In this document: positions 55,221-57,865 of the stretch, in pieces
How the letters are laid out: the number at the start of each line of letters is the position of its first letter
Position numbering within the stretch: position 1 is the stretch's first letter
Assembly: GCF_000242595.2 (NCBI RefSeq)
Contig: NC_017098.1
Coordinates: 2,294,001-2,358,000, forward strand
From: Spirochaeta africana DSM 8902
GTDB taxonomy: Bacteria > Spirochaetota > Spirochaetia > DSM-27196 > DSM-8902
Length of the DNA: 64,000 bases
Direction: 5' to 3'
Made by a program: the position numbers and the translations under genes
Notes under the pieces: generated by a model
Database searches by the model: none
Seen by the model: only the letters and a program-made list of their open reading frames with translations
Told to the model about the DNA's origin: nothing

Positions 55221-56894
55221 TCAGCTGTTTTTCTGTACCTTGGCCCAGGTGTCTCGCAGGGTCACCGTGCGGTTAAACACCGGAAAACCTGGTTTTGAAA
55301 GCTTGATATCCACGCAATAATAGCCCTTACGCAGGAACTGAAATCGCTGACCGGATTCAGCGTGCTGCAGACTGGGCTCTGCCCAGGCTCGTGGTACAAT
55401 CTGGCGAGAGTCCGGGTTCAGATTATCGAGATAACTGCCGCCCTCACCGGGATTCTCCGGAAACGGCGTACAGAACAGATGATCATAGTTATGCACCTCA
55501 ACCGGAACCGCATGCGCGGCCGAGACCCAGTGCAGGGTTCCCTTCACCTTGCGCCCGTCTGGAGTGCTGCCGCCGCGTGATTCGGGGTCGTAGCTGCAGC
55601 GCAGTTCGACAATCGTACCGTCAGCATCCCTTACCACCTCATCACAGGTTATGTAGTAGGCGTTCTTCAGTCGCACCTCGCGTCCGGGGCTCAAACGAAA
55701 CCATTTTTTGGGCGGCTCCTCGATAAAATCCTCCCGCTCGATGTATAACTCACGGGAAAACGGTACGATCCGCGTGCCTGCAGCCGGATCCTCGGGATTG
55801 TTTTCTGTTACAAATTCCTCGGTCTGTCCGGCGGGGTAATTGGTAATCACGACCTTAACCGGATCCAGTACCGCCATAACCCGCGCCGCTGTTCGGTTCA
55901 GGTGCTCCCGGATATGAAACAGCAGATGCGCAGCATCGATGGTACTTTCCGTCTTGCTGACACCGATATCCCGGCAAAACGCAACGATTGCCTCGGGCGG
56001 GTAGCCGCGGCGGCGCATACCGGAGATAGTTGGCATACGCGGGTCGTCCCATGACTCAACGATCCCCTGCTCCACCAGTTCCCGGAGTTTACGCTTGCTG
56101 AGCACGGTATAGGTCAGGTTCAATCGGGCGAACTCGTACTGATGCGGCGGATCCGGCAGTTCAAGCTCCTTGAGAAACCAGTCGTACAGCGGCCGGTGAT
56201 TCTCGAACTCGAGGGTACAGATGGAGTGACTGATGCCCTCGATGGCATCTGACTGCCCATGGGCGAAGTCGTACATCGGGTAGATGCACCATGTACTTCC
56301 GGTACGATGATGGGCAGCATGTCGAATCCGGTACATGGAAGGATCTCGCATATTCAGATTGGGGTGTGCCATGTCAATCTTTGCCCGCAGTACATGCTCA
56401 CCCTCGGCAAATTCGCCCTTGCGCATCCGTCGGAACAGATCAAGGCTTTCCTGAACCGGACGATCACGGTAGGGACTGTTGCGACCGGGTTCGGTCGGGG
56501 TACCCCGATACTCCCTGATCTGCTCGGGAGACAGGCTGTCGACATAGGCCTTGTCCTTGCTGATCAGAAATTCCGCGAACTCATAGAGCCGTTCGAAATA
56601 GTCAGAGGCATAAAACTCCCGATCACCCCAGTCAAACCCCAGCCAGGCAACATCCTGCTTGATGGATTCAACAAACTCCATCTCCTCCCGGGTAGGATTG
56701 GTATCGTCAAAGCGCAGGTTGCACTGCCCCCCATACTGCTGTGCAAGGGTAAAATTCAGGGTAATCGACTTGGCATGGCCGATATGAAGGTACCCGTTTG
56801 GTTCCGGCGGAAACCGGGTCAGGATCTTGCGGCGCCCTGCGGCAAGATCATTCTCGATAATATGCTCGATAAAGTTCTTGGTGCTCTCACTCAT
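55221..56894 (-). CDS. glnS: Glutaminyl-tRNA synthetase
   Basis: The 557-residue class I synthetase has [16 protein letters not shown] (HIGH motif), [12 protein letters not shown], the KMSKS-equivalent LSKRKLREL, and the beta-barrel anticodon domain at the C-terminus (ending [11 protein letters not shown]). GlnS rather than GlnRS-free amidation implies direct Gln-tRNA charging. ATG 56894 is preceded by GGGGG and, 7 bases before, TAAAGT; GTG 56903 is an alternative. Convergent with the HD-GYP-like gene. Confidence 0.96.
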
Positions 56895-57044
56895 AGCCCC
56901 CACTTTACCACAAGAGCAGCAATTAAGGCACTACCAGCCGCGCAGATGTTTTCCTGTTGAAGCCAGTTTTATTGTTTACCCGCAGAGACAGCAACAGCAG
57001 CCGCTGAGACCTTGAACAACAAAACTGGCGTCAGTTTTCTATGC

Positions 57045-57083
57045 AAAAAAAAGCACGCAGGTAAAGGAGGAAACCTGCGTGCT
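57045..57083 (-). terminator. Intrinsic terminator of the putative small RNA
   Basis: An 11-bp perfect stem (AGCACGCAGGT and ACCTGCGTGCT) with a 10-base loop UUCCUCCUUU is followed on the minus strand by T7-8. No protein gene ends near it on this strand; the CBM gene has its own terminator at 57416-57449. Confidence 0.9.
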
Positions 57084-57250
57084 GATTTTGTATCCTCTGA
57101 GTAAAAATGAGGGGCGGCACCGGGGGTTGGAGGAGGAGAAGGGTTGGTGCCGCCCCCACAATGGAGGATGGTATGTATGCACCGGAAGCCGCATATCCGC
57201 AAAGCGGATAGGGTTGGCTTGGTATGGAGTGTCGCGACTCCCGATACACT
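57045..57250 (-). ncRNA. Putative small regulatory RNA with anti-Shine-Dalgarno loops
   Basis: Minus-strand features in order: a small hairpin GGAGT/ACTCC (57226-57241), hairpin ATCCGC-TTT-GCGGAT (57195-57209), a single-stranded ATCCTCCAT (57162-57169), an 11-bp hairpin GGGGCGGCACC/GGTGCCGCCCC (57111-57121 with 57146-57156) whose 24-base loop contains CTCCTCCTCC, and the terminator hairpin with TTCCTCCTT in its loop. Three UCCUCC segments can pair with GGAGGA ribosome-binding sites. The 5' end is not fixed: an AT-rich stretch lies at 57277-57320, and TTGCGA-16-TAAAGT at 57331-57358 could start a longer (about 280-base) form. No coding potential is seen. Confidence 0.6.
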
Positions 57251-57415
57251 GCTATATATACAACTTCGATGCCAACAGGATACAGAATATAAATATTTTT
57301 ATTTATTTTTTTATTTCATTGCAAGGAAACACTTTACACCATACTTACTGGATCGCAATACCCATGCGGCAATTGGAGATACCAGATTCAGCTCGACGCT
57401 ATACGCGCAGCGCGC

Positions 57416-57449
57416 AAAAAAAAAGCGGAAACCGCATAGCGGCTTCCGC
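57416..57449 (-). terminator. Intrinsic terminator of the CBM48-like lipoprotein gene
   Basis: On the minus strand the stem GCGGAA..CCGC / GCGG..TTCCGC (57425-57449, loop of 3, one mismatch) is followed by T9 (57416-57424), 24 bases after the stop codon. Confidence 0.88.
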
Positions 57450-57472: not shown

Positions 57473-57865
57473 TTACTGCAGTTCGAGAACTGCATTCTCC
57501 CCGCCAAAACCATCATCGGTTGCATCGGTAGGGATTGGATCCACGTACTCAAGAATAGCGGTCGGCTCGGTCCATTCACCGTCGATCACATACTTGTACT
57601 GGTGATTGCCCGCAGGAAGATCTACGGTCAGCTCGAAATACTCACCATTCCAGTCCATGGCCCAGTTCAGGTCATCAGGTGCCCAGCCGGTAAAGGAACC
57701 GGCAAGAACTACTTCCTCGGCCTCGCCGTAGTACGCAAAAGTGATCGGACCGGCTTCATAGATATTGCCCATGGTCAGATCACGTTCAGGCGCCCCGGTG
57801 GCACAGGCAACGGTCATAGCCATCACCAGTACTGCCAATACGGAAAACAGAACAACTTTCTTCAT
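57473..57865 (-). CDS. Small CBM48-like (glycogen-binding) lipoprotein
   Basis: The 130-residue protein has a lipoprotein signal peptide with lipidated Cys21 (MTVAC) and then a single E-set/CBM48 domain: ITFAYYGEAEEVVLAGSFTGW, in pieces, FELTVDLPAGNHQYKYVIDG. This is the glycogen- or starch-binding module otherwise fused to branching or debranching enzymes or AMPK; no catalytic part is present. It is probably exposed on the periplasm or surface and may bind alpha-glucan for the GH13 lipoprotein. AGGAGG ribosome-binding site, clear promoter and terminator. Confidence 0.82.
   Translation of the reverse strand: MKKVVLFSVLAVLVMAMTVACATGAPERDLTMGNIYEAGPITFAYYGEAEEVVLAGSFTGWAPDDLNWAMDWNGEYFELTVDLPAGNHQYKYVIDGEWTEPTAILEYVDPIPTDATDDGFGGENAVLELQ

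Follow-up and report, generated by a model that had tools for sequence, protein, structure and literature searches.

The locus and its neighboring genes

The window discussed here is a 64,000-nucleotide stretch of the Spirochaeta africana genome (3,285,855 bp, a single contig), and coordinates are window positions unless genome positions are specified. To judge from its sequence, the locus at 57045-57256 on the minus strand probably encodes a non-coding RNA of ∼200 nt. It and its neighbors are as follows.

55221-56903, minus strand: glnS (glutamine--tRNA ligase), the downstream gene (NCBIfam 866.8 bits, cut-off 681)
57045-57256, minus strand: predicted small RNA (putative 5′ end; 3′ end at the T run)
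57425-57449, minus strand: terminator-like site of the upstream CBM48-type gene, which separates that gene from the RNA
57473-57865, minus strand: upstream AMPK1_CBM/CBM48-type gene, whose start has AGGAGGT

The glnS ATG at 56894 is preceded 7 nt upstream by TAAAGT and has no SD; by its appearance (spacing 7) this start looks to be of the leaderless type.

Predicted fold and parts of the RNA

The initial annotation placed an RNA at 57045-57250, and a strongly structured element is indeed present there on the minus strand. Minus-strand segment 57260-57036 folds with −89.3 kcal/mol (z −8.23), and none of 200 shuffles was equally stable. The orientation follows from the position of the T run, which lies 3′ of the minus-strand hairpins. 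The plus-strand reading, in which the loops carry GGA, was rejected; the plus strand of 57045-57250 folds less stably (z −4.25), and the T run is on the wrong side for it. Such GGA loops are a feature of CsrA-binding RNAs. No sigma-70 consensus promoter was found near the window RNA, and its transcription is therefore something that we infer. The RNA can be divided into four parts.

57174-57252 (approximate bounds), minus strand: long 5′ hairpin H1, with a CACTCC site predicted to be open (P 0.91)
57160-57170, minus strand: linker with a CATCCTCC motif, predicted to be mostly paired (P unpaired 0.2-0.39 for the site near 57167)
57110-57157, minus strand: GC-rich hairpin H2, with loop CTCCTCCTCC at 57138-57129 predicted to be open (P unpaired 1.0)
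57045-57083, minus strand: intrinsic terminator (hairpin 57083-57052) and T run, with loop TTTCCTCCTTT at 57073-57063 (55 bits under model R1, described below)

The terminator loop site is likewise predicted to be unpaired (mean P 1.0), and the loop, UUUCCUCCUUU, is the complement of AAAGGAGGAAA. The motif CUCC is present six times in the 212-nt RNA against a mean of 1.53 expected, a number that was reached in none of 500 dinucleotide-preserving swaps. The anti-SD character that had been attributed to the RNA agrees well with these predicted open loops in H1, H2, and the terminator, and with the recurrence of same-loop hairpins across the class that is described next.

Hairpins with the same loop in S. 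africana and its relatives

The S. africana genome contains three such hairpins, the window copy and two others.

Genome positions 1977876-1977911, minus strand (locus L092, 1877-1912): second copy, an anti-SD-loop terminator
Genome positions about 3020077-3020115, plus strand (locus L093, 2578-2616): third copy, an anti-SD-loop terminator

The third copy has a CorC-type gene upstream and leuS downstream, an arrangement that is also present in relatives. One more match of model R1 in this genome (390657-390695, 26.3 bits) proved to be an ordinary terminator and was set aside.

When the window RNA was compared by blastn with 100 related genomes, only short matches were obtained (best foreign E value 0.005); the two top matches, both from one genus, contain the same terminator loop within different stems, and the other eight loci that were read do not. 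Model R1 was built from an ungapped set of eight hairpins that includes the window copy, a set that took the place of the mixed-length alignments A1 and A2. The window copy has the attributes of the family, a GC-rich terminator hairpin, a CTCCTT loop and a T run after it, and scores 55 bits (E 1.1e-13) under R1, of which it is itself one of the eight model sequences. With E ≤ 0.01, R1 matches 158 of the 297 genomes of the class, a total that includes 41 of the 43 further genomes in the order of S. africana, and is without a match at this threshold in the remaining 139. With the threshold raised to 35 bits, 101 matches remain, in 80 of the 297 genomes; 29 of these 80 are in the same order, and four of them (S. 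africana itself, G000, and G071, G091, and G141) contributed hairpins to R1. The anti-SD loop could be read in 40 of the 43 same-order genomes (39 plus G023).

Two control models retained the R1 stems. In the first, R2, the pyrimidine loop was scrambled; it matched 76 of the 297 genomes. Of the 41 matches that score at least 30 bits under R2, 37 are R1 places, scored on average 12.7 bits lower than by R1. The other four comprise one hairpin with an anti-SD loop (G023) and three with ordinary loops. In the second, R3, the loop was replaced by the SD-like sequence AAAGGAGGAAAA; it matched 102 of the 297 genomes, and all that it found above 33.3 bits was the opposite strand at four places with an anti-SD loop (G049, G008, G033, and G027).

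Beyond the class, R1 had no match of at least 35 bits (best 34.4 bits) in a sample of 50 of the 76 non-spirochete genomes available, each of these 50 having the loop pattern somewhere. With E ≤ 0.01 it matched 15 of these 50; when the 15 loci were read, 12 had no CCTCC, two (L285 and L286) have CCTCC in the stem, and in one (L287, 23.5 bits) the motif sequence lies outside the stem, but the stem is poor. Among 159 genomes 23 were R1-positive, and 15 of the 23 belong to other classes of the same phylum; six of the eight other-class hairpins that were read have the loop, the exceptions being L270 and L271; it is also absent from L358, which is of the class. The bare pattern TTTCCTCCTTT followed by a T run is present in 85 of the 297 genomes, and its reversed control also matches many; 30 loci with the pattern divide into nine strong hairpins (score at least 24) and 21 that score 17 or less. 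Among the matches listed for named genomes (80 of 114 loci), the loop, judged by hairpin score, lies in a hairpin at four of four spirochete loci versus two of 76 others. One locus outside the spirochetes among the matches listed, L187 of Lentisphaeria, has this loop in a convincing terminator, and its presence there could reflect chance, transfer or wider spread; at another, the non-spirochete L183, placement of the loop in a hairpin is doubtful.

Constant loop, variable stems and a second motif

CTCCTT is present in the loop of 122 of the 125 spirochete hairpins read (110 genomes), but these were picked by a model that itself contains the loop, and the independent evidence for it is therefore the R2 control. 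The loop reads ACCTCCTT, in the order of the 16S tail, in 97 of the 122, and TCCTCCTT, without the A, in 21, the window copy being of this second type; some family loops read TCACCTCCTTT. The usual anti-SD loop of the family, ACCUCCUUU, is as in the 16S 3′ tail, a match made against the general 16S sequence, which we take to represent the host tail as well. A search of the S. africana genome sequence gave no 16S family match and no GATCACCTCCTTT, and the rRNA was probably either left out of that sequence or missed.

Across the family the loop is constant and the stems vary. All nine stem pairs change on both sides among 84 distinct rows, and 99.5% of stem cells are paired versus 78.5% in shuffles, both values coming from an alignment fitted to the structure. 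A second copy of the motif often lies nearby: there are 47 CCTCCTT sequences in the 14,520 nt that lie within 120 nt upstream of the hairpins versus one in 85,794 nt of flanks. In 67 of 122 relatives an extra CTCCT or CCTCC lies within 130 nt upstream, and in 55 there is none; the window copy has such an extra motif, the CTCCTCCTCC of H2. In 27 aligned RNAs both motif copies are nearly invariant. Fold, loop, covarying stems, spread and repeated motif are in this way all features that can be read from the DNA.

There is almost no chance, in our estimate, that these are ordinary terminators whose loops agree by accident. It is true that the number of terminator-like sites in the region is close to that expected by chance (one found versus 1.2 expected) and that the loose pattern of CCTCC plus a T run is unenriched in this genome (50 matches versus 56 for the reversed control), but accident does not explain a loop that stays constant while the stems vary, and no comparable class emerges from the models with a scrambled or an SD-like loop. 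Another alternative is that the RNA has no antisense role and is a protein-binding mimic, a decoy for some protein or enzyme that acts on the 16S 3′ end. The many loops in 16S-tail order, and those that read TCACCTCCTTT, would suit such mimicry; those without the A, to which the window copy belongs, would not, and the part that is kept is exactly the part that pairs with an SD. A decoy is thus distinctly unlikely.

Several smaller observations concern the surroundings and number of the hairpins. The element TTTGT(A/T)AC has 15 copies within 120 nt upstream of the hairpins, two at 120-240 nt and none in the other flanks counted (examples are L241, L314, and L337); it may belong to the RNA or serve as a control site. 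In three loci of one genus (L095, L098, and L101) two successive hairpins both have TTTTCCTCCTTTT-type loops, and these RNAs sit after a histidine-kinase gene (the gene being named in L095 only). In another genome, a single intergenic region contains two anti-SD terminators in tandem, separated by ∼170 bp (L097 and L005; G091:C8, about 21641 and 21810).

Recurrent gene neighborhoods

Family hairpins recur in two neighborhoods, pfk/pgi and corC/leuS, where cluster names rest on one member per cluster. The phosphofructokinase-family cluster is present at 27 loci (25 of them with the gene upstream in the same orientation as the hairpin), and at 19 loci a phosphoglucose-isomerase cluster follows in convergent orientation. 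Members of a CorC-type cluster lie upstream in 20 loci (same strand in 19), and 18 loci have a same-strand leucyl-tRNA-synthetase cluster downstream. Promoter-like hexamer pairs were found at 41 of 120 family loci, where 12.8 were expected.

The same-strand genes upstream suggest an alternative in which the anti-SD stretch is a 3′-UTR element that follows pfk or corC in the upstream mRNA and pairs with the SD of that or another message. Such an arrangement has a precedent in the icaR 3′-UTR of Staphylococcus aureus, where an anti-SD motif after the coding gene pairs with the SD (PMC3868564). There, however, the motif is UCCCCUG and its target is on the same mRNA, and it does not belong to a terminator-loop family. 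We consider the 3′-UTR alternative, which may apply to copies after pfk or corC, unlikely overall, in that the promoter-like sites between gene and hairpin exceed expectation, a terminator-like site precedes the window copy, and the loop is common to loci with very different upstream genes.

The genes downstream raise the converse idea of a leader device, a terminator whose ligand-binding or attenuating loop controls the next gene (glnS here, leuS elsewhere). The position of leuS, which follows in the same orientation at the 18 loci and also lies downstream of the third S. africana copy, would allow this, and terminator-embedded aptamers are known (PMC8632094). Nonetheless its chances are very slim: cis control of a downstream gene fails at the pgi-side copies because pgi is convergent, the loop is anti-SD whatever the neighbor, and Rfam gave no riboswitch match and, in front of the synthetase gene, no match to a T-box or to any other known leader.

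Comparison with known anti-SD RNAs

At the Rfam gathering score, the window and 38 loci gave nothing besides tRNA and SRP matches, and no published description of spirochete anti-SD terminator RNAs was found in the literature searched, which excludes most subscription papers. The best reading, by analogy, is that the window RNA would work like the alpha-r14/cuckoo RNAs without being one of them. Those RNAs have three hairpins, unpaired anti-SD motifs and strongly divergent stems, as here, and they pair with the start region of an mRNA and so block its translation; NfeR1, a member, has ntrB and two ABC-transporter mRNAs as targets (PMC10746234). They differ in that their motif is CCUCCUCCC, present three times, whereas the spirochete motif is of the ACCUCCUUU type and lies mainly in the terminator loop; in the window RNA the three loops are not identical CCUCCUCCC copies but CACTCC, CTCCTCCTCC, and TTTCCTCCTTT. 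The alpha-r14/cuckoo RNAs are moreover alphaproteobacterial, and so from another phylum, and neither the window nor the 38 loci matched them in Rfam.

Two other systems are similar in part. LhrC1-5 of Listeria are multicopy, and their redundant C/U-rich sites, placed in loops, in the linker, and in the terminator loop, bind close to the SD, for example on lapB (PMC4132741). Their motif, however, is UCCC and not a 16S-tail sequence, whereas the window sites have CUCC followed by A, T or a further CUCC; the relation of the two RNAs was compared through Rfam only. The streptococcal csRNAs likewise comprise several related anti-SD RNAs per genome, but they are CiaR-controlled and carry their anti-SD and anti-start-codon sequences in the unpaired segment that links two hairpins (PMC3091779), whereas the anti-SD sites of the window RNA are in hairpin loops. 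They act on comC (PMC4507080).

Translation start classes

The starts of genes in S. africana were classified in a sample of 137 well-defined ATG starts from 464 kb (the window plus 400 kb). An SD core is present at 63, none at 65, and nine are in between. TANNNT ends exactly 6 nt before the ATG at 17 starts versus 2.4 expected from shuffles, and it does so at 15 of the 65 no-SD starts versus one of the 63 SD starts (Fisher p 2.4e-4). The genome thus mixes SD-led and leaderless-type starts, and the coexistence of the two, which was the premise of the initial annotation, therefore holds. Among the genes it had assigned to the leaderless class, aroB (17815), glgX (29193), and proA (39849, codon 32 of the ORF) fit, each having a TANNNT hexamer and no SD, whereas pabB and nrdR were not found by NCBIfam among the 28 distinct proteins scanned; its SD-led examples cysK (34955), radC, and the CBM48-type gene do have AAGGAGG or AGGAGG at their starts.

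Complementarity of the 137 starts to the window terminator loop is less than 4 nt in 51, 4-6 nt in 67 and 7-8 nt in 19; it is graded, not two-state. This bears on the idea of a global switch, raised in the initial annotation, in which an abundant RNA would compete with ribosomes for SDs across the transcriptome and block most SD-led mRNAs while leaderless ones escape and continue, such that its level would balance two translation programs and shift cells from one to the other. 6S RNA, which titrates RNA polymerase, would be the analogy for an anti-SD RNA that competes with ribosomes in this manner. The loop is a generic SD complement and is the part that stays fixed, and leaderless-type starts are real in this genome, both of which speak for such a switch. 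On the other hand, only 19 of 137 starts offer 7-8 nt to the loop, and the anti-SD RNAs that have been studied act on selected mRNAs, making transcriptome-wide action improbable.

Proposed function

It seems reasonably likely, from sequence comparison, that the window RNA is one member of a new spirochete family of trans-acting anti-SD RNAs. The same hairpin tip is found again in many spirochetes, and the window RNA therefore probably silences messages by covering the ribosome landing site. In the proposed mechanism, the terminator loop and further loops would display an anti-SD sequence, which in most relatives is ACCUCCUUU, as at the 3′ end of 16S rRNA. By analogy with NfeR1, LhrC, and the csRNAs, the loop would pair in trans with the purine-rich SD of mRNAs and keep ribosomes off. 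Repression should be strongest where the SD is long, and leaderless mRNAs would not be direct targets; they would escape because the pairing site is absent. Separate transcription of the RNA, its pairing, the resulting repression, and the timing of its production are steps that we infer.

These hairpins constitute an RNA family without an Rfam entry that recurs in a bacterial class and displays the ribosome's message-recognition sequence in a terminator loop. If the mechanism is true, these spirochetes would share a form of post-transcriptional control, in S. africana in a genome that gave no Hfq in a search whose control detected Hfq in five of 14 known genomes. Because the same genome uses leaderless-type starts, it would then also be possible to test directly whether two modes of translation start can be separated by an anti-SD RNA.
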